Source of the DNA: Deltaproteobacteria bacterium
GTDB taxonomy: Bacteria; Desulfobacterota; Desulfobaccia; Desulfobaccales; 0-14-0-80-60-11
DNA: 37,420 bases
NCBI GenBank assembly: GCA_016875015.1
Contig: VGSJ01000024.1
Location: 1 to 37,420, forward strand
Reading direction: 5' to 3'
Shown: piece by piece, positions 8,812 through 20,896 of the stretch
How positions within the stretch are numbered: position 1 is the stretch's first letter
How the letters are laid out: the number at the start of each line of letters is the position of its first letter
The notes under the pieces: model-generated
Databases searched by the model: none
What the model saw: only the letters and a program-made list of their open reading frames with translations
Told to the model about the DNA's origin: nothing
Made by a program: the position numbers and the translations under genes

Positions 8812-11205
8812 TTAAGGCAAGCCGCTTGTCGGATCTTGCGACTTTCCCTTTTCGCCTTTTTCCCTTTTCGCCTTTTCCCCCGCAATTTTCTCGTCCATCT
8901 CCCGGATGACCTGCTGAAAGTTCTTGCCCTCCGTGGCGGAAATCCACTCCAGGCGAAGGCGCGCCGGGTCGATGCCCTGCTTGGCCAGCTTAGGCGCAAG
9001 TTTTTCGATGCGGGCCTGGGCCCTGAGGTTCCCGGCCATGTAATGGCAGTCCCCCGGCGGGTGGCAGCCCGAGACCAGCACCTGGCCGGCGCCTTGCGCG
9101 AAGGCATGGAGGATGAACTTGGGATGGACCCGCCCGGCGCACATGGTCCGGATAATCCTCACCGCCGGTGGGTATTGCAGCCGGGAAACCCCGGCGAAAT
9201 CCGCCCCGGCATAGGAGCACCAGTTACAGCAGAAGGCCAAAATCTTCTCCTGGGGATTAGCCGCCAGGGCCTCATCAATCTGGGCCAGGATCATCTCGTC
9301 GGTAAAGCCCCGGGCGATGACAGCGCCGCTGGGGCAGGCCCCGGCGCAGACCCCGCACCCTTTGCAAGCCGCGGTGATGATCCGGGCTTGACGAGTTTTC
9401 CCTTCTCCCACCATTTCCACGGCCTGGAACGGGCATTCCTGGTAACAGCTCTCGCAGCCGATGCACCTGCCCGGGTCCACCGCGCAAATCAGGCCGTCCA
9501 GGGTGATGGTGTCGTGGGCCATGAGGGCCAAAATCTTGCCCGCGGCCCCGGAGCCTTGGGTAATGGACTCGGCCAGGTCCTTGGGGCCCTGACAGGCCCC
9601 GGCCAAGTAGATGCCGTCCAGCACCGTCTCCAGGGGGCGCAGCTTGGGGTGGGCTTCCATGAAAAAACCGTCTGGCGTCACCGGCAGCTTCAGCGCCTCC
9701 CTGAGGGCGGCGCCGCCCCCCGGCGTCATGCCCACCGCCAGGACCATTAGGTCCACCCGGTCCCGGCTCACCCACTGCCCCAGTTCCTGGTCCGCCTCGA
9801 GCACCACCCGGCCCGCCTCACCCGGCCGGATATCCCGCACCTGGGCCCGCATGAACCCGATGCCCGCCTCCCGGGCCTGGGTGTAAAGGGCCTCCCACTC
9901 CTTCTTGACCGTCCTGATATCCCGGTAATAGATGCGGATGCGGGCCTGGGGCAGGCGGGCCTTCAGTTCTAGGGCCTGCTTCAAGGCCGTGGGGCAGCAG
10001 ACCCGGGAGCAGTAGCGGTTCCCCTCTGCTTCCCGGGAGCCGACGCACAGGACAAAGGCGATGTCCCGGGGCTCGACGGTCGCCCCATTTGCCAGCACCC
10101 GGCCCCCGGTAGGCCCCCGGGGGTCCAGCAGTCGTTCCAGGGTAACCGTGGTGATGACCTGGGGCTGGGCGGCCCAGGCTTCGTAACGGCTGCCCGCCGG
10201 CGTAAAGGGCGCAAAGCCCGTGGCCACCACGATGCTCCCCACCTTTAGGGTATGCTCGATCTCCCCCTCGGCCTCCAAGGTGATGGCCTGGCGGGGACAG
10301 GCCAGGACGCACAGCCCGCAACGGTCGCAGTGCAACGCATCCACCACATAGCGGGCCGGAAAGGCCGTGGGCGACGGCCGGTAGATGGCCGCCCTCAGAC
10401 CTCGGCCCGGTCCCCGGTCATCCGGGACCTCAACCGGGCAGACCGCGGCGCACTCGCCACAGAGGTCACAGTCTTGGGTGACCCGCGGCCGGGCTTGCCT
10501 GACCAACACCTGGTAGTTGCCCAGGTGGCCGCCCACTTCGGTGACGGAACTGTCGGTGAGCACCGCGATGCCGGGGTTGAGCGTCACCGCGGCCATCATG
10601 GGGCTGATGAGGCTCACGATGCTCTGGCCCTGGGGAAAGGTCTTGTGCAACCGGTTGGCCATGCCTCCCAGCACCGGGGCGCGCTCCACCAGGGTCACGG
10701 GGATCCCGGCGTGGGCGATGTCCAGGGCAGCCCGGAGACCCGCCGGGCCCCCGCCGATCACCAGGGCGGCGCGGGTCAGGGGCACCTGGCGCTGGGCCAG
10801 GGGGACCGCGTCCCGCACCTTGGCCAGCCCCATGCGGATCAACTCCAGGGCCTTCACCAACGCCGCGGCCGGTTCCCGGGCGTGCACCCAGGAGCAGTGC
10901 TCCCTAATGTTGACGATTTCCAGGAGATAGGGATTGACGCCGTTTTCGGCCAACAGGCGCCGAAAAGTGGGCTCGTGGAGCTTGGGCGAGCAGGCCGCCA
11001 CCACCATGCGGTTCAAACCGAACTGCTGGATATCTTTGGCTATATCCTTCTGGCCCGCCTCGGAGCACGAGTAGAGATGATCCCGGCACACCGCCACCCC
11101 CGGCCAACCCCGGGCCGCGTCCGCCAGGGCCTCAGGGCTGATGACCCCGGCAATGTTGTGCCCGCAGTGGCAAATATAGAGGCCGATTCGGAGGTCGTCG
11201 CTCAT
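8812..11205 (-). CDS. hdrA: HdrA-MvhD fusion
   Basis: This 797-residue fusion has an N-terminal HdrA module with CHCG at 12-15 and AACSPKLHEPTF at 70-81. The Rossmann motif GGGPAG lies at 151-156, with ferredoxin motifs at C236/239/242/246 and C293/296/299/303. The C-terminal part has two more ferredoxin motifs (CIGCESCYQECP, CKGCGVCAGACP) and an MvhD/FlpD domain (FCCNWCSYAGAD, RTMCAGRV, SGCHPPGDCHY) that normally holds a 2Fe-2S cluster and links HdrA to a hydrogenase or formate dehydrogenase. In the usual DCSxCIL signature the cysteines are replaced (GQSIVSLISP). The last residues, KREKGEKGK, are encoded by the GGCGAAAAGG-type simple repeat. It is probably an entry or exit point for electrons in the complex. 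Confidence 0.93.
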   Translation of the reverse strand: MSDDLRIGLYICHCGHNIAGVISPEALADAARGWPGVAVCRDHLYSCSEAGQKDIAKDIQQFGLNRMVVAACSPKLHEPTFRRLLAENGVNPYLLEIVNIREHCSWVHAREPAAALVKALELIRMGLAKVRDAVPLAQRQVPLTRAALVIGGGPAGLRAALDIAHAGIPVTLVERAPVLGGMANRLHKTFPQGQSIVSLISPMMAAVTLNPGIAVLTDSSVTEVGGHLGNYQVLVRQARPRVTQDCDLCGECAAVCPVEVPDDRGPGRGLRAAIYRPSPTAFPARYVVDALHCDRCGLCVLACPRQAITLEAEGEIEHTLKVGSIVVATGFAPFTPAGSRYEAWAAQPQVITTVTLERLLDPRGPTGGRVLANGATVEPRDIAFVLCVGSREAEGNRYCSRVCCPTALKQALELKARLPQARIRIYYRDIRTVKKEWEALYTQAREAGIGFMRAQVRDIRPGEAGRVVLEADQELGQWVSRDRVDLMVLAVGMTPGGGAALREALKLPVTPDGFFMEAHPKLRPLETVLDGIYLAGACQGPKDLAESITQGSGAAGKILALMAHDTITLDGLICAVDPGRCIGCESCYQECPFQAVEMVGEGKTRQARIITAACKGCGVCAGACPSGAVIARGFTDEMILAQIDEALAANPQEKILAFCCNWCSYAGADFAGVSRLQYPPAVRIIRTMCAGRVHPKFILHAFAQGAGQVLVSGCHPPGDCHYMAGNLRAQARIEKLAPKLAKQGIDPARLRLEWISATEGKNFQQVIREMDEKIAGEKAKREKGEKGKSQDPTSGLP

Positions 11206-11683: not shown

Positions 11684-12526
11684 TTATTTATTTACCAGTT
11701 TCGCCACCGCCGTTTCCCAGGCGTGGGAAAACTCCCCGGGTTCCGCCACCACTTCCTCCCGGACCAGGGTGATGGCCTCGTCGTCGCAGATGTTGACGCA
11801 GACCCCGCAGAAGGCGCAGTTCTCCACCCGGAAGCCGACTCGGTTCCCCTCCCGAACGATGGCCTTCACCGGACAGAGATCGATACACTTCACGCAGTCC
11901 GGCGGGCACTTGTGGTCGTCGATGACCAGGCGGCCGCGGAATTGGGGGTTGACGGCAATGGCTTCGTACTCGCACACCGTCAGGCACTGGGTGCACCGGA
12001 GACACAGGTCGGGAGAAGGCCAAGTCTGGCCCGCGGCCTCATCCAAGACGATGGCCTGGCGGGGGCAGGCGGCCAGACACTTGTGGCACTGCTTGGGGCA
12101 CTCCGTCAGATCGTTGGGCGCCAGCTTGAGTTGTTGGCGGCACCAGTGCTCCTCCCCGTCGGGGGCCGCCGGACAGGGCAGGAGGCACCGGCTCTTGTCC
12201 ATGTCGATCTTGGGGAGAAACGGCGCCAGCCCCTGATGGTCCGCCATGATGGTCTTGGCTTCGCCGTTGTAGCTCAGGGTCACCGCCGCCACCGGGCAGA
12301 AATGAGCGCAGATCTCGCACATCAGGCAGAGGCGGGGGTCGATGGTGATGTCCAGGCCATCGTCCCCGCAAATAATAATGACCGCCTCCCGGGGGCAGAC
12401 TTTGGCGCAGATGTCGCACTTCAGGCAGACAACCTTGTCCAGGCGCAACTGCACCGTATCGACGAACAGCGCGAGCGTCAATTCCAGCTGCGTGGCGGTT
12501 TCGCGTTTGATAACCCGGGGGATCAT
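11684..12526 (-). CDS. Six-cluster polyferredoxin (FwdF/MvhB-like)
   Basis: This 280-residue soluble protein has six cysteine motifs for 4Fe-4S clusters: CLKCDICAKVCP, CLMCEICAHFCP, CPKQCHKCLAACP, CLRCTQCLTVCE, CPPDCVKCIDLCP and CAFCGVCVNICD. The third and fifth use a C-x3-C-x2-C-x3-C spacing, unlike the standard C-x2-C-x2-C-x3-C. An extra Cys-containing linker (CLLPCPAAPDGEEHWC) sits in the middle. Such proteins act as electron wires in formylmethanofuran dehydrogenase (FwdF) and hydrogenase/Hdr complexes (MvhB). Beside fwdA/fwdB-like and hdrA genes, a wiring role in a single large complex is a reasonable inference. No clear ribosome-binding site precedes the ATG. Confidence 0.88.
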   Translation of the reverse strand: MIPRVIKRETATQLELTLALFVDTVQLRLDKVVCLKCDICAKVCPREAVIIICGDDGLDITIDPRLCLMCEICAHFCPVAAVTLSYNGEAKTIMADHQGLAPFLPKIDMDKSRCLLPCPAAPDGEEHWCRQQLKLAPNDLTECPKQCHKCLAACPRQAIVLDEAAGQTWPSPDLCLRCTQCLTVCEYEAIAVNPQFRGRLVIDDHKCPPDCVKCIDLCPVKAIVREGNRVGFRVENCAFCGVCVNICDDEAITLVREEVVAEPGEFSHAWETAVAKLVNK

Positions 12527-13489: not shown

Positions 13490-16400
13490 TTAAGCGCCGC
13501 CGGTCCTCATCTCGCCGCCGCAGGCCGCCTCGATCTGGGCGGACAACTCCGGCTCGGCGCCCCGGCTCATGTGGATGGCCCCGGCCGGACACTCCGCGGC
13601 GCAGACCCCGCAGCCCCGGCAGATCTCGAGGCGCACCTCCGGCTTCGCATCCGAGAGCGCCACCGCCCCGAAGGGGCAAATTTCAACGCATGCCAGGCAG
13701 CGGCGGCATGCCTCCGGGGTGATCCTGGCCACCGTTTCGCTCGCCAGCAGTTCCGTCTGGAACAGAATCCCGGCGGCCCGAATCGCCGCGGCCTGGGCCT
13801 GGGCCGCAGTTTCCCCCAGGCTCTTGGGATAGTGGGCCACCCCGCAGAGAAACACCCCTTCGGTAGCCGAGTCCACCGGCCTGAGCTTCTGGTGGGCCTC
13901 CTGGAGCCACCCGTCCAGGGTCCGGGCGACTCGCAATTGCTGGGCCAGGTTATCGCTCCCCTCCGCGGGTTCGATCCCCGCGCTCAAAACCACCAGGTCC
14001 GCGGGCAAAGCCACTTCCTGGCCCAAAAGCTCATCTTCCACCCAGACCGTGAGGGGCCGCCGCCGGGCCGCGGTCACCCGGATGGGCCGCGCCGCCTCAA
14101 AGGGAATGAACGTCACTCCCCGGTCTTTGGCTTTCACATAGTAACTTTCCCGAAATCCATAGGCCCGGAGGTCCCGGTAGAGGACGGTGATCTCCATCAG
14201 GGGATAGCGTTCCTTGAGCAGGAGGGCGTTCTTGAGGGCCTGGGAGCAGCACAGGCGGCTGCAATAGGGGTGGTCCGGTTCCCGTGACCCCACGCACTGG
14301 ATCATCACCAGGCGCCGCACCTTGGGCAAATCCAGATCGCCAAAATTGATCTTCCCCTCCAACTCCCGCTGGGTGAGCACCCGGGGGTCCTCTCCGTAGA
14401 GATAGCGGCCCTGGGGCCGAAACTCCCGGCCCCCGGTGGCCACGACGATGACCCCGTGCGACAGTTCCCGATCCTTAAAGCCGTTCAGGGTGAAGCGGCG
14501 CACGGTGCTCCTGAACTGCCCCACGTGCCCCGTGAGCTTAAGCAGTTCGGTCTGGATGCGGACTTCGAGGTTGGGATGGTTGTAGACTGCGGTCTGAAGC
14601 TCGTGGAGAAATTCCTGCGGGTCCGGGCCTTCCAGGGTAAAAAACAGCTCCCGGGCCAGGCCCCCCAGGGAGTTCTCCCGTTCCACCAGGTAGGTGTGAA
14701 AGCCCTGGTCCGCCAGGGTCAGGGCGGCGTTCATCCCGGCCACGCCGCCCCCCAGCACCAGGGCCCGGGGAATCACCGGAAAGCTCCGGGGCTGAATGGG
14801 CGTCAGGACCGCCGCCCGGGAGACCGCCATGGCGACCAGGTCCAGGGCCTTGGTCAGGGCGGCAGCAGGGTTCGTCTGATGGACCCAGGCGCACTGCTCC
14901 CTTATATTGGCAAAGGCAAAGTAGCCCGGGTTCAGGCCGGCGGCGGCCAAGACCTCCCGGAACACCCCTTCGTGGGTCCGGGGACTGCAGGCGGCCACCA
15001 CCACCCGGTTGAGCCTTAGGGTCTGGATGGCCTCCCGCATCCGGGTGGTGGACTCCACCGCGCAGGAAAACAGGTTGTCTTCAACCAAGGCGACTCCGGG
15101 CAGCTGCGCTACGGCAGTCGATAGTTTCGCCAGGTCAATGGTCTTGGCGATATTGGCGCCGCAGTGACAGAGAAAGACTCCGATCCGGGGAGGAAATTCC
15201 GCCACCCGGCTTAAAGCCGGCTTCGTCTTGGTGGCCCAGGTGCGGTTGGCGGTAGTGAGCAGCTGGGAGGCTACCGCGGCCGCGGCGCCGGCGGTGGTCA
15301 CGGATTCGGGGATGTCCATGGGTTCCCGGGCGGCGCCGCACACGAGCACGCCGGTCCGGGCGGTGGTCACCTGGAGCAACGGCGAGGTCTTAATGAACCC
15401 GTGCTCATTGAGCCCCACCCCCAGGCGCCGGGGGAACCTTGGCAGCGCTCGCCCGGGCCGAAGCCCCACGGACAAGACCGCCATATCAAAGGGCTGCTCC
15501 CGGGGCCTGCCGCGGGCGTCGGCAAAGCGCACCAGTACTCCGCCCTGGGGCCGGGGAGTCACGGCGGTCACCCGGGAGCGGACCAGGCCGACGCCGTGCC
15601 CCCGGGCTTGCTCCAGATAACTTTCATACCCCTTGCCCTGGGCCCTCAGGTCCATATAAAAAATGGTGGATTCCACCCGCCGGGCGCTGATTTCCCGGGC
15701 CACCAGGGCTTCCTTGAGGCCGGCCATACAGCACACCGTCGAGCAATATGCCGCGCCGGCCTGGGGGTCCCGGGACCCCACGCACTGGATGAAGGCCAGG
15801 CGGGCGGGTTCGGTGTGATCCGACGGCCGCAGCAGCTTGCCGCCATGAGGGCCGGTGGCGCTCAGCAACCGCTCGAACTGGACACTGGTCACCACGTCGG
15901 GATGCCCGTACCCGGGGAAATCCTCGGCCGGCGCCGGGGCCGCACCCAGGGCCAAAATGATGACCCCCACGGACTCCGTCCATTCCTTTGCCGCGTCTTT
16001 AAGATTTATGGCTTTAGCCGGGCAGACCTTGATGCAGGCCTCGCAACTTTTCCCCCGGAACACCCGGCAGGCCTCCGGGGAGATATACGCCGCCTGGGGG
16101 ATGGCCTGGGGGAAGGGCAGGTGAATGGCCTTGGTCTGGCTGAGCCCGAGATTATACGGGTCCGGGAGACTCTGGGGGCACACCCGGGCGCATTCGCCGC
16201 AGCCGGTGCACTTGCCCACGTCCACGAACCGGGGCCTCCGGCTTAAGAGGACCTGAAAATCCCCGGCCCGGCCTTTGACCTCTATGGCCTGGGTGGACGT
16301 CTGGATCGTGATGAGGGGATGGCGGGAGATTTCCAGCATCCGGGGGCTCAGGATGCACATAGCGCAGTCGTTAGTGGGGAAGGTCTTGTCCAACTGCGCC

Positions 16401-16552
16401 ATCAGGCCGCCGATGGAGAAGTTTGCTTCCGCCAGGGTCACCGGCAGCCCCGCGGCAGCCACCTCCAGGGCGGCCTGGATGCCGGCAATGCCGCCGCCCA
16501 CTACCAGCACCCGGGGGTGGGCCACCCGATCTAATGGCCGAACCGTGGCCAT
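13490..16552 (-). CDS. hdrA: Tandem HdrA-HdrA fusion with C-terminal ferredoxin
   Basis: This protein of about 1020 residues contains two HdrA modules in series. Module 1 has GGGIAG (19-24), the signature QLDKTFPTNDCAMCILSPRM with its CxxC (Cys63, Cys66), and ferredoxin motifs C115/118/121/125 and C162/170/173/177, the last with unusual C-x7-C spacing. Module 2 starts near residue 455 with FLCHCGANI and VVAACSPRTHEGVF, and has GGGVAG at 601-606, but lacks both the signature CxxC and the inserted ferredoxin. The end carries two ferredoxin motifs (CRRCLACVEICP, CRGCGVCAAECP). The start ATG at 16552 has AAAGGAG upstream; GTG codons just before it are alternatives. The longer reading runs into a repeat. 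Two FAD sites per chain are expected, so the protein could split electrons between two routes. Confidence 0.92.
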   Translation of the reverse strand: MATVRPLDRVAHPRVLVVGGGIAGIQAALEVAAAGLPVTLAEANFSIGGLMAQLDKTFPTNDCAMCILSPRMLEISRHPLITIQTSTQAIEVKGRAGDFQVLLSRRPRFVDVGKCTGCGECARVCPQSLPDPYNLGLSQTKAIHLPFPQAIPQAAYISPEACRVFRGKSCEACIKVCPAKAINLKDAAKEWTESVGVIILALGAAPAPAEDFPGYGHPDVVTSVQFERLLSATGPHGGKLLRPSDHTEPARLAFIQCVGSRDPQAGAAYCSTVCCMAGLKEALVAREISARRVESTIFYMDLRAQGKGYESYLEQARGHGVGLVRSRVTAVTPRPQGGVLVRFADARGRPREQPFDMAVLSVGLRPGRALPRFPRRLGVGLNEHGFIKTSPLLQVTTARTGVLVCGAAREPMDIPESVTTAGAAAAVASQLLTTANRTWATKTKPALSRVAEFPPRIGVFLCHCGANIAKTIDLAKLSTAVAQLPGVALVEDNLFSCAVESTTRMREAIQTLRLNRVVVAACSPRTHEGVFREVLAAAGLNPGYFAFANIREQCAWVHQTNPAAALTKALDLVAMAVSRAAVLTPIQPRSFPVIPRALVLGGGVAGMNAALTLADQGFHTYLVERENSLGGLARELFFTLEGPDPQEFLHELQTAVYNHPNLEVRIQTELLKLTGHVGQFRSTVRRFTLNGFKDRELSHGVIVVATGGREFRPQGRYLYGEDPRVLTQRELEGKINFGDLDLPKVRRLVMIQCVGSREPDHPYCSRLCCSQALKNALLLKERYPLMEITVLYRDLRAYGFRESYYVKAKDRGVTFIPFEAARPIRVTAARRRPLTVWVEDELLGQEVALPADLVVLSAGIEPAEGSDNLAQQLRVARTLDGWLQEAHQKLRPVDSATEGVFLCGVAHYPKSLGETAAQAQAAAIRAAGILFQTELLASETVARITPEACRRCLACVEICPFGAVALSDAKPEVRLEICRGCGVCAAECPAGAIHMSRGAEPELSAQIEAACGGEMRTGGA

Positions 16553-16661
16553 CACACGCACGCGCTCCTTTGGACAAATCGTCGAGTCCCCATAGGGGCG
16601 ATCCGCCGGGGCACCCCTACGGGGCTGGAACATATTTCAGGCTGGCGTGAAAAACGCCAGG

Positions 16662-17129
16662 TTACTCCGGTTCACCGGCTATCCGGGCCAGGGCGTTTTT
16701 CACCTCCGGCTCTTCAGGCCCGGACAGGAGTGCGCCGATGAGGCGCCGCCTAAGTTCCTGGATAAGCCGCTCCCCCTGCTCCAACCGGGCTACTTGCACC
16801 GGGCTGATGAAGCCGTCCCGGAGAGCCAAATTTCTCAGACCCTGGATAATATCCAGAAAACGCACGTCCTGGGGACACTGAAAGGAGCACCGGGCGCAGC
16901 GGGCGCAGTGCCAGAGGGCCGGAGAACTTAGCAGGGCCGTCCGCCGGCCGTAGAGCACCTGGCGAATGATCAGGCTGGGGCTGAAGTTCGGCGCCAATTC
17001 GCTCACCGGGCAGGTGGCGGTACAGACCCCGCAGGCAAAGCAGCGCAAAAGGTGCTGACAACCGGGTTCGGCGGCCACCTCGTCCTTAAACTGGGGGGCC
17101 AGATCCTGCAGGTTTACGGTTTCGGTCAT
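16662..17129 (-). CDS. hdrC: HdrC-like iron-sulfur protein
   Basis: This 155-residue protein has two 4Fe-4S motifs, CFACGVCTATCP (C30/33/36/40) and CARCARCSFQCP (C75/78/81/85), the pattern of heterodisulfide reductase subunit C. In known complexes HdrC carries electrons between HdrA and the catalytic HdrB. No HdrB with its CCG cysteine-rich motifs is found in this window, so the partner here must be another protein or be encoded elsewhere. The helical C-terminal third (VQVARLEQGERLIQELRRRL) is longer than the minimal HdrC. It is encoded 109 bases upstream of the tandem hdrA ATG and probably in the same transcript. Confidence 0.88.
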   Translation of the reverse strand: MTETVNLQDLAPQFKDEVAAEPGCQHLLRCFACGVCTATCPVSELAPNFSPSLIIRQVLYGRRTALLSSPALWHCARCARCSFQCPQDVRFLDIIQGLRNLALRDGFISPVQVARLEQGERLIQELRRRLIGALLSGPEEPEVKNALARIAGEPE

Positions 17130-17446
17130 ATGGAGCCTTCAGCAGTTAGCTATTAGCTGTAATGACATACAAGGTTATCATACAAAACTGGTTATGGGCT
17201 GTCAGCTACAACAAAGGAGAGAACATGTGGAACAGCCGCCCTCGGCTGTTCATTGGGTGAACCGGCTTTCAGCCGGTTCACCCACACAGGCTGGAAGCCT
17301 GTGCCACTAGGACTTTTGTCTATACATGCGCCCGAGGCATGACCATTGGCCCCAATTTTTGGTGTCGAAGCAGCTTGGTCCAACCATGGCAAATGTGTGG
17401 TAACCTCTATTGTCATTACTGCTAACCGCTGCCTGCTAACTGCTCA
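17130..17446. repeat. Gap with three consecutive palindromes
   Basis: GAACAGCCG/CGGCTGTTC (about 17230-17252), GGTGAACCGGC/GCCGGTTCACC (about 17257-17282) and ACAGGCTGG/AAGCCTGTG (17285-17303) follow each other between the Fe-S protein gene and hdrC. No gene is seen. The three hairpins are not followed by T-tracts and may act in mRNA stability instead. Confidence 0.7.
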
Positions 17447-17896
17447 TCAAAACAACTCAATGGCCTCGGTGGGGCAGTACTGGGCGCACTTGCTGCACTT
17501 CTCCGCGGCCTGGACCAACCGGGTGCAGAGTTCCTGGCGGACCACCACCACCGTGCCGTTGACCACGCGGAAGACCACCTGGTCCTGGGGGCGGGGTCCC
17601 TTGCCCAGCCGGGCCGCGGCGCAATTTCCCAGATGAAATTCGCACATGGCCACGCAGATGCCGCAGCCGTTGCATTTTTCCGGATCGATGCGCATCCCCG
17701 CCGCCGCGGCCAAAGGCCCCAAGAGCTCGTGCAGGGCCTCGATGAACCCGGCATAGTCGGGCTCGTGCAAGACCGGACAGTCCTCCGGCGTCAGTTCCCG
17801 GGCCAGGAGCAATCGGGCGAACTCGGCGCAGCTGGCGCCGCACTGCCGGCAATCGGCGCCGGGCAAAAATTCCAGGAGATCTTCCACCGCGGCCAT
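17447..17896 (-). CDS. Iron-sulfur protein with Fe-S4 and ferredoxin motifs
   Basis: This 149-residue protein has an N-terminal motif DCRQCGASCAEFA with a later Cys39 (C16/19/23/39), resembling the four-Cys Fe-S domain of RnfB and CO-dehydrogenase/acetyl-CoA synthase subunits. A ferredoxin motif follows (CNGCGICVAMCEFHLGNC), and a C-terminal CSKCAQYCPTEAIELF completes a second cluster. It starts 3 bases after the fwdA-like stop, so the two are translationally linked. It probably serves as a ferredoxin-type subunit (like FwdG) of the Fwd-like complex. I considered and rejected HdrB because there is no CCG domain. Confidence 0.85.
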   Translation of the reverse strand: MAAVEDLLEFLPGADCRQCGASCAEFARLLLARELTPEDCPVLHEPDYAGFIEALHELLGPLAAAAGMRIDPEKCNGCGICVAMCEFHLGNCAAARLGKGPRPQDQVVFRVVNGTVVVVRQELCTRLVQAAEKCSKCAQYCPTEAIELF

Positions 17897-17899
17897 GGC

Positions 17900-19273
17900 T
17901 TACCGCCCCACCCAGGGTCCGCCCAGGCCTTCCCGAACCCAGAGGTTTTCCCTTCGCAAACTCTGGAACTGGCAGATTTCCGCCAGCATGGGGGTGGCCT
18001 CGGCGCCGGTTTGCCGGTAATACGTGGCCCGGGCTACCTCCGGGTTCACCAGGCTAAAGTTGTCCACCACGACCTCCCCGGCCTTGAGCAGGGTGCGGCA
18101 GCGGCCCAGGTAGCGGCGCCACTGGCCGGGGGGGGCATCCGTCGGCACGTCATAGATAGCCACGTCGGCCCGGGCGCCTACGCTCAGCCGGCCCCGGTCC
18201 TCAAGGCCCAGCAGCCGGGCGGGCAGGGCGCGGGTGGTCCAGACCCACTCCGACAGCGAATAGCGCCGCGCTCCCAGGTCATCGTGCCAATCCTGCCGGC
18301 GGGCCGCGTGGTCCCACAGCCAGGAGAACAGACGGGGGTATTCGGTCACCGGCGCCCGGGCCAGGCCGGCCCCGGAAAAGGCCGCCTGGGAGCCAGGGCA
18401 GCACAGGGCCAGGGTCATGGCCCTCCGGCCCGCGGCCTCATCCACCGGCGGGTTGAGGTCCAGGGGGCGGAACCACCCCAGGTCTATCCGGACCGGCAGC
18501 CGGGTCGGCCCGGTCTGAGGGCCGGGGAGCATGAGCCCCAGGTCCCCGGTGGCGCCCGCCTCCAGGTGGGCCAGGGCGGCCGAAACCAGATCATCCTCCG
18601 CCAGCGCCGGGCCCAGGGCGGCCAGATGGAAGGCGGCGGGCTCCGGCAGGTTAGCCCGCAGCACCTCGGGGGAGGCTTCCAGGGACAGGGGCGCCCCGGT
18701 CATCCGGGCCAGGTCGGTCAATATCTCCAACACCTTCTCCGGTTCGATGGCGCGATGGGCATAAAAACCCTGCCGGTACCGGACAAAAGGCTCCACCACC
18801 CGGAAATTTAGGGCGCGGGTCTCTTCCAGCAGATACAAGAGAGTTTGTCCCACCTCCTTAAGGTGCTCCGGGGACCGCAGCCACAGGTCGAAGTCTCGCA
18901 GGTTGAGGACCAGGGAGGCGGAGGTGTCCACCACCGGCAGGCCGGCCAACTGGCGCTGGACGTAGCCCGCGGTCCAGGCCGTCAAAAACGGCTCGTGGAC
19001 ATGAGTATATCCCAGGAGGGCATAGCTTTCCCCCAATTCCCGGATAGAGGGCGCCCCGTTGGTCAAACGCAGGAAGTTGAGGCCGTAGGCGGCCACCTGC
19101 CCCCGGAGCTCAATCCCCGCCGGGGCCACGAACTGGCCCCGGGCCTCGATCTCCCGGTCCACCTCGGGGAGCGGCGCCACCAGGCGCCCGTCCTGGATGT
19201 AGAGGTCGCCTACCTCCCCGTCCCAGCCGCAGGTTGGATCATAAAGGCGTCCCCCGGCAATCTTAAGGCGCAT
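17900..19273 (-). CDS. FwdA-like amidohydrolase fold, catalytic ligands lost
   Basis: This 457-residue relative of formylmethanofuran dehydrogenase subunit A (about 570 residues in methanogens) keeps the family frame: an N-terminal beta sandwich, VAPAGIE, LGYTHVHE, EYPRLFSWLWD, and RRYSLSEWVWTTRALPAR followed by GARADVAIYD. The zinc-site motif, usually D-x-H-x-H-I-A-G, reads ELRGQVAA, with Arg57 and Gln59 in place of both His. The Lys of the usual KIVNP motif aligns with Arg158 (RVVEP). The His-rich HLHCNDLGHPG segment reads SLEASPEVL, and the TTDSPN Asp is replaced. Formyl hydrolysis therefore looks impossible. It is preceded by GGAG and followed at 3 bases by the Fe-S gene. The role is unknown, possibly a scaffold. 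Alignment is from memory of the family. Confidence 0.82.
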   Translation of the reverse strand: MRLKIAGGRLYDPTCGWDGEVGDLYIQDGRLVAPLPEVDREIEARGQFVAPAGIELRGQVAAYGLNFLRLTNGAPSIRELGESYALLGYTHVHEPFLTAWTAGYVQRQLAGLPVVDTSASLVLNLRDFDLWLRSPEHLKEVGQTLLYLLEETRALNFRVVEPFVRYRQGFYAHRAIEPEKVLEILTDLARMTGAPLSLEASPEVLRANLPEPAAFHLAALGPALAEDDLVSAALAHLEAGATGDLGLMLPGPQTGPTRLPVRIDLGWFRPLDLNPPVDEAAGRRAMTLALCCPGSQAAFSGAGLARAPVTEYPRLFSWLWDHAARRQDWHDDLGARRYSLSEWVWTTRALPARLLGLEDRGRLSVGARADVAIYDVPTDAPPGQWRRYLGRCRTLLKAGEVVVDNFSLVNPEVARATYYRQTGAEATPMLAEICQFQSLRRENLWVREGLGGPWVGR

Positions 19274-19437: not shown

Positions 19438-19545
19438 TCTCCCCCTCCCCTGGTGGGAGGGGGTTGGGGGGAGGGGGAATTAAGCGCAATCTCGATATAT
19501 TTTCACCCCCACCCTGACCCTCCCCCATCAAGGGGGAGGGAAAAA
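19438..19545. repeat. Repeats between fwdA-like and fwdB-like genes
   Basis: Within the 339-base gap 19274-19612 two G/C palindromes are seen. One is CCCCTCCC...GGGAGGGGG with a TTGGGGGGAGGGGG tail (19438-19478); the other is CCCTCCCCC/GGGGGAGGG (19517-19541) with TCACCCCCACCCTGA before it. The rest of the gap shows no gene. The repeats separate two genes that would be expected to form one complex. Confidence 0.75.
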
Positions 19546-19612: not shown

Positions 19613-20896
19613 TCAATCTTGCGCCCCGATCAACCGGTGCAGGTCCGTGAGCGCCTGGTGATCCGGGGGCAGCGCCGAGGGCACCAACTGCTTCAGGACC
19701 AGGGGCAACCCATCCATCCGGTAGGCCACCTCGACCGTTTCAATTCCGGCCAGGGCCGTCGGCAAAATAACCGCGGCTTGGCCGGTAGTCCGGTTGGCAA
19801 ACGGGCTCAAGACCACGATAGGGACGCGGCGGCGCTTCAGGTCCCCCACCTGCTCCTCCGGCAGGAACCACAATAAATCCGCCCCGGCGACCAGCACTGC
19901 GTCCACCTCCCGAAAATTCACCGGGAGAGAGTGGGTCGCCAGTTCCCCCGCCCCGAAATCCGGCGCGCCGGCACCGCCCACTTCGTTGAGCAGCAGGTGG
20001 TATAGGCCGCTGGAGTTGAAGTCGCCGGACAGGGGGAACAGAAAAAACCGCTTCTCCCGATTGAGGAATCCCACCAGGCGGGCCAGCCGGTCAAACAGTT
20101 CCAGGGCCGGGCCATAGCTGACCCCCCGGCCGCAAAAGATGACCCCGCAGGAGGCGTTGGCCAAAAATTGCGCCAGACGCCTGACGCCCCGGACCACGGG
20201 ATCAGGCGGCGGCTCCCCGGCCAGGATGGCGGCGGCGCCCAGCACCAGGTCCAGTTCCTGCCCGGGGTTGATCTTGATAAACAGGGGGCAGAACCTGGCC
20301 AGTTCGGTCTGGTAGATGTCCACCGCCGCCACCTGCCGGTCTTCTATCCCCCGTTCGGTGAAGCGGCCCCGGGCAAAGGCGGCATAGCGCACCACGTGCC
20401 GGGGAGCGGAGTGGATGGGATTGGCGCCCCAGAACAGCACGGCGTCGGCCTCATCCCGGATGACCTCCAGGGGGGCCCAGTCGAGGCCGTGCTGCTGGAT
20501 GCTCCGGTAATAGGGGGCCTTGAAGGCCAGATCCGCCGGTTCCAGCCGGGCCCGCAAAGTGCGGGCCAGTTTCAGGGCAGCCTCCTGGGCGAAGGAACCG
20601 GAATTGGTCAGCCCATAGATGAGCGGCCGGCGGGCCCGGCTCATCACCTGGGCCGCCTCCGCCAGGGCCGCGTCATACGACACCATCTCCCAGCGCCCCT
20701 GATGGCGAACCCGGGGCGTCAGCAGGCGGTGACGCTCTTTCTTGGGATGAAATTTCTTGGCGTGGAAAAAGCGGCTCACACCCCAGAGGCAGACATTGGT
20801 GACCTCGACGATCCGGTCCCCTTCGACGGTGACATCAAGATCATCACAGAGGCAACCGCAACCGGGACAGATGATGGATTCGTGCCTGACTCCCAC
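19613..20896 (-). CDS. FwdB-like molybdopterin-oxidoreductase fold, metal-ligating Cys lost
   Basis: This 427-residue homologue of formylmethanofuran dehydrogenase subunit B has the N-terminal 4Fe-4S motif intact (ICPGCGCLCDD...VTNVC: C10, C13, C17, C36). Family landmarks follow: SYDAALAEAA, RRPLIYG, FWGANPIHSAPRH, GIEDRQVAAVD, INPGQELD and the C-terminal VAYRMDGLPLVLK. In methanogen FwdB the Mo or W is held by a Cys (or Sec) in a CHGP motif; here the site reads FKAP, Phe125 replacing Cys. No FwdD-type domain is encoded nearby. The start is GTG with AGGTG upstream. It is the first gene of the Fwd/Hdr cluster. Methylotroph FhcB also lost this site, but FhcA there keeps zinc, unlike the partner here. 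Confidence 0.85.
   Translation of the reverse strand: MGVRHESIICPGCGCLCDDLDVTVEGDRIVEVTNVCLWGVSRFFHAKKFHPKKERHRLLTPRVRHQGRWEMVSYDAALAEAAQVMSRARRPLIYGLTNSGSFAQEAALKLARTLRARLEPADLAFKAPYYRSIQQHGLDWAPLEVIRDEADAVLFWGANPIHSAPRHVVRYAAFARGRFTERGIEDRQVAAVDIYQTELARFCPLFIKINPGQELDLVLGAAAILAGEPPPDPVVRGVRRLAQFLANASCGVIFCGRGVSYGPALELFDRLARLVGFLNREKRFFLFPLSGDFNSSGLYHLLLNEVGGAGAPDFGAGELATHSLPVNFREVDAVLVAGADLLWFLPEEQVGDLKRRRVPIVVLSPFANRTTGQAAVILPTALAGIETVEVAYRMDGLPLVLKQLVPSALPPDHQALTDLHRLIGAQD

Follow-up and report, generated by a model that had tools for sequence, protein, structure and literature searches.

The window, as we call the whole 37,420-nucleotide stretch of DNA analysed here, encodes a true homologue of the formylmethanofuran dehydrogenase subunit FwdA in which none of the six ligands of the binuclear metal site is kept, together with an FwdB-like partner whose active-site residues are replaced and homologues of HdrA, HdrC, MvhD, FwdF and FwdG. 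With a rough probability of 0.6, we consider that this metal-free FwdA homologue has been kept as a structural subunit, a pseudo-amidohydrolase scaffold, of an Hdr-Fwd-like electron-transfer complex. An earlier sequence-only reading of this DNA had described the loss of the zinc site; the loss of the FwdB active site and the Hdr-Fwd electron-transfer operon, both absent from that reading, are the larger finding. In the order of their transcription from the minus strand, the genes are the following:

19613..20896, minus strand: FwdB-like subunit, 427 aa; four [4Fe-4S] Cys kept, W-site residues replaced
17900..19273, minus strand: FwdA-like pseudo-amidohydrolase, 457 aa; former ligand positions R57, Q59, R158, E199, A219 and A302, new HxH (H91/H93) on strand beta2
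17447..17896, minus strand: FwdG-like ferredoxin, 149 aa, carrying an additional [4Fe-4S] domain (PF04060) at its N terminus; best PDB matches are FwdG
16662..17129, minus strand: HdrC-like subunit
13490..16633, minus strand: double HdrA with two flavoprotein modules, 1047 aa
12863..13336, minus strand: DUF3795 Cys-rich protein, conserved in the operon
11684..12526, minus strand: FwdF-like polyferredoxin, 280 aa
11270-11653, between the FwdF-like and HdrA-MvhD genes: four-helix bundle gene of the 23S rRNA intervening-sequence type
8812..11205, minus strand: HdrA fused to MvhD/FlpD, 797 aa
6859..8481, minus strand: HdrA-like flavoprotein, 540 aa

The FwdA-like and FwdG-like genes are separated by 3 bases and the FwdB-like and FwdA-like genes by 339. 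Most of this set recurs in Desulfobaccia, in a different order in family f71 and partly in f40, and families f13 and f3 carry the B-A-G trio without an adjoining HdrC/double-HdrA operon.

Metal-site residues of the FwdA-like and FwdB-like subunits

The open reading frame at 17900-19273 is intact over 457 codons of the minus strand, which the earlier reading had left unstated, with a GC3 of 0.85 and a GGAG ribosome-binding site 9 nt upstream of its ATG, in agreement with the earlier description of an intact gene with good codon structure and a normal ribosome-binding site. Its product is a true FwdA homologue. Specifically, phmmer matches it to 6s6y_A (1.6e-22) and 5t5i_A (4e-18), and it matches TIGR03121 at 4e-34 with 117.8 bits, below the family cut-off of 392.75 bits. 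An AF2 model (pLDDT 90, pTM 0.91) has only FwdA/FhcA structures among its top eight matches in a PDB fold search (1e-25 to 1e-30, the next match standing at about 6e-15). At 457 aa, the protein is some 90-110 residues shorter than canonical FwdA (545-569 aa).

The binuclear metal site of FwdA/FhcA consists of four His, an Asp and a carboxylated Lys (PMC11656701). The window protein keeps 0/6 of these ligands, the replacements being H57R, H59Q, K178R (residue 158), E199 for the beta5 His, A219 for the beta6 His and A302 for the beta8 Asp. HMMER alignments match R57/Q59 to the HxH of FwdA and R158 to Lys178 of 5t5i, and E199, A219 and A302 were placed via the zinc-retaining f40 intermediates, which have His, His and Asp there; this route was taken for E199 and A219 because the beta5-beta6 region aligns poorly directly to canonical FwdA, the beta5 column being a gap in the canonical f34 rows of the alignment. 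The sequence-only reading, which had the first His-x-His replaced by Arg57-x-Gln59, the carboxylated Lys aligned with Arg158, the Asp replaced and hence every recognised zinc ligand gone, is thus upheld, in that no His, Lys or Asp ligand falls at the six equivalent positions. Its further claim that a His-rich segment is gone fits the shortening, but shortening by itself does not amount to ligand loss, because the equally short f40 proteins keep their ligands.

In the FwdB-like protein (5t5i_B numbering), the tungsten ligand Cys118 is changed to Phe, His119 to Lys, Arg288 to Ser and His290 to Asp, so that the Fwd/Fmd tungsten/molybdenum site (Cys118, His119, Arg288) reads Phe, Lys and Ser. The tungsten Cys, the catalytic His and Arg288 are each missing from all readable clade members, and all three are found in the canonical locus L083; the fold is kept in the predicted model (TM 0.92 to 5t5m_B). 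From these residues and the missing partner genes, we infer that tungsten is absent from the FwdB-like protein. This inference is limited by the existence of molybdenum enzymes in which the protein does not ligate the metal. At the level of sequence, the electron-carrying residues are conserved where the catalytic ones are not, since the FwdB FeS cysteines and the 12 cluster cysteines of the FwdG-like protein (invariant in 32/32) are kept and the W-site residues are lost. The FwdB-like protein also has a weak sequence match and fold matches to NuoG of complex I, a molybdopterin-enzyme relative turned FeS electron carrier; NuoG belongs to a different complex and is an analogy for the FwdB-like subunit only.

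Could these losses be early decay? The ex-ligand positions differ between relatives, as do the leftover ligands between lineages, and FwdB in one relative from the window's genus reads as two ORFs (genome G003, L070:15592-16908), as the result of a frameshift or of misassembly. An early pseudogene or drift without function is nonetheless highly improbable: none of the 19 full-length orthologues in the class (window included), which are accompanied by fragments, has an internal stop, the operon is conserved across distant families, and dN/dS values (0.21-0.25 inside the genus, 0.15-0.24 between three f2 relatives) indicate the purifying selection that the earlier reading had proposed to look for. 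A match to the protein occurs in 21/29 class genomes. The gene is therefore maintained rather than decaying, as had been claimed, given the absence of stops, the dN/dS of 0.15-0.25, the conserved operon and the well-formed predicted fold; the word pseudo-enzyme applies in the sense of FwdA-type binuclear metal chemistry, all of whose ligands are gone, and is limited to that chemistry.

Relatives and the order of metal loss

Family f40 combines a shortened FwdA that keeps its ligands (all six in five rows and five in L043) with a tungsten-less FwdB, and it branches outside all zinc-less proteins with support of 99/95 in the A tree and 98/97 in the A+B+G tree. Because of this pairing and position, tungsten was probably lost before zinc. 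The ligands left over differ among the zinc-less lineages (H57/H59 in f3, H59 in f71 and the beta6 His in f13), a pattern that suggests a subsequent stepwise loss of the zinc ligands; f3 and f71 are long branches, which bears on the number of events, and the concatenated tree groups the Desulfobaccia proteins apart from f71 with support of 54/99, which is not decisive. The relatives thus form an ordered series, from canonical f34 through tungsten-less, zinc-intact f40 to zinc-less f3, f13, f71 and Desulfobaccia, that illustrates how a bifunctional CO2-fixing enzyme can become an electron-transfer part.

Canonical FwdA occurs in 2/395 genomes of the phylum. Family f34 (L083 and L094, genomes G271 and G229) encodes FwdC and Ftr alongside canonical FwdA, and FwdB was read in G271; this gene set corresponds to a bacterial formyl-methanofuran-type route. 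In two f40 genomes (L084:11850-14845 and L085:12467-15474), the zinc-intact FwdA gene is followed by a CdhA-like and then a CdhB-like gene; at 532-538 bits, the CdhA-like protein lies under the TIGR00314 cut-off and is clearly homologous to the CODH/ACS alpha subunit.

Candidate roles of the metal-free barrel

Under the scaffold reading, the products of the operon would form one complex, in which electrons may enter at MvhD/HdrA and pass by way of the HdrA flavins and both ferredoxin-type proteins (FwdF-like and FwdG-like) to the [4Fe-4S] cluster of FwdB, from which ferredoxin or another acceptor would take them up, or may move in the reverse direction; the FwdA-like protein would hold FwdB and FwdG in place and perform no formyl chemistry. 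This reading is argued for by the loss of the six FwdA ligands and of the FwdB site with FeS cysteines and folds kept, and by the 12/12 invariant FwdG-like cysteines, the FwdG/FwdF homology, the conserved operon, the purifying selection and the precedent of an Hdr-Fwd supercomplex (PDB 7bkb).

The gene complement likewise points to a scaffold rather than a formyl enzyme. The window's genome has a single FwdA-like and a single FwdB-like gene, and a genome search found no canonical FwdA or FwdB, so that a canonical FwdA elsewhere in this genome was rejected. Among the 20 trio-bearing genomes tested, none has FwdC above the family cut-off or Ftr/FhcD; the canonical f34 genomes are positive for FwdC, and two of them have Ftr/FhcD. 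Weak FwdC matches lie mostly in long ORFs (of 900 aa in the window's genome), and two fall in ORFs of some 245 aa (G111 and G103). FwdD was not found among the window genes scanned. HdrB is absent from the window's contig, the window has no CCG motif, and the HdrB-like genes of this genome are on other contigs only. Formate activation needs no Fwd, because FTHFS is present in 29/29 class genomes; on the same ground, the unit was rejected as a substitute for a missing formate-THF ligase. Hydrolysis of formyl-methanofuran was rejected as a function in view of the missing FwdC/Ftr and the six lost ligands. One further ORF of the window's genome (C8:53471-54148) resembles formate dehydrogenase and contains an in-frame TGA that may encode selenocysteine.

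The following observations count against the scaffold reading: the trio of f13 and f3 without HdrC/double-HdrA neighbours, the lack of significant excess variability at the ex-ligand columns relative to other strand-core columns (P=0.25), and the invariance of polar residues in the barrel. His stands at positions 91 and 93 in 29/29 zinc-less members, where zinc-intact f40 has H-N and canonical FwdA has T-F, and H91, H93, D116, S118, E161, H216 and D244 are invariant in 19/19 Desulfobaccia. Invariant H91, H93, E161, H216 and D244 seem to exceed the needs of a pure scaffold. The barrel may instead have been repurposed, with a new metal or catalytic site around H91/H93, perhaps with E161, H216 or D244, that would act on some substrate while Hdr and the ferredoxins serve the redox half. 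We regard this as doubtful: one substitution on the tree could explain H93, which is therefore not repeated evidence, most f13 rows have Y/F in place of H216, f3 has F in place of E161, and no new catalytic neighbour gene is common to all groups. It is just as tentatively that we propose the corresponding history, in which the Fwd half of a methanogen-type Hdr-Fwd machine in several Desulfobacterota lineages would have had its tungsten and then its zinc centre dismantled and its barrel given a new H91/H93-based site.

An FhcA-like formyl hydrolase that has kept its activity on a formyl carrier would agree with the closest folds being FwdA/FhcA, with FhcB, which likewise has no tungstopterin, and with the ligands kept in f40, for which such an activity is a possibility; for the window protein, with six ligands lost in a genome devoid of Ftr/FhcD and FwdC, it is very unlikely.

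Comparison with known systems

As in the methanogen Fwd/Fmd-Hdr complex (PDB 7bkb, Fdh-Hdr-Fmd), homologues of FwdA, FwdB, FwdF, FwdG, HdrA, HdrC and MvhD are encoded together, the comparison here being one of genes alone; PDB 9sfi and 9sw6, both with Fwd and Hdr subunits among their chains, are likewise comparable. By contrast with the methanogen complex, the window cluster has no FwdC, HdrB or tungsten- and zinc-site residues, its FwdG-like protein has the extra PF04060 domain, and HdrA is doubled within one gene and represented by three HdrA-type genes. The methylotroph FhcABCD complex (PDB 6s6y) shares bacterial FwdA/FwdB homologues, and it is there that the A subunit has its best fold match. 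It differs in that no Ftr/FhcD or FwdC/FhcC was found for the window system, whose A subunit is devoid of metal ligands and whose operon contains Hdr genes. Metal-free amidohydrolase homologues of the CRMP/dihydropyrimidinase-like type are pseudoenzymes. They share the amidohydrolase fold and are among the fold-search matches but belong to another subfamily, with a fold score of about 6e-15 versus 1e-25 to 1e-30.

An annotation as 'formylmethanofuran dehydrogenase' is thus no proof of a methanofuran pathway in these bacteria, and the operon suggests that Desulfobacca and related bacteria possess an uncharacterised Hdr complex. No description of this Hdr-Fwd-like unit was found in the open-access literature, which leaves out preprints and most subscription papers and so provides weak evidence of novelty.

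Two intergenic gaps of the operon have features of their own. The FwdG-HdrC gap (window 17133-17445) is MITE-like, bounded by 52-nt inverted arms that are 73% complementary and 209 nt apart. The palindrome CCTCCCCCTTGATGGGGGAGGG, for which the chance expectation is none, lies in the FwdB-FwdA gap (window 19518-19540) and again at 2638-2660.
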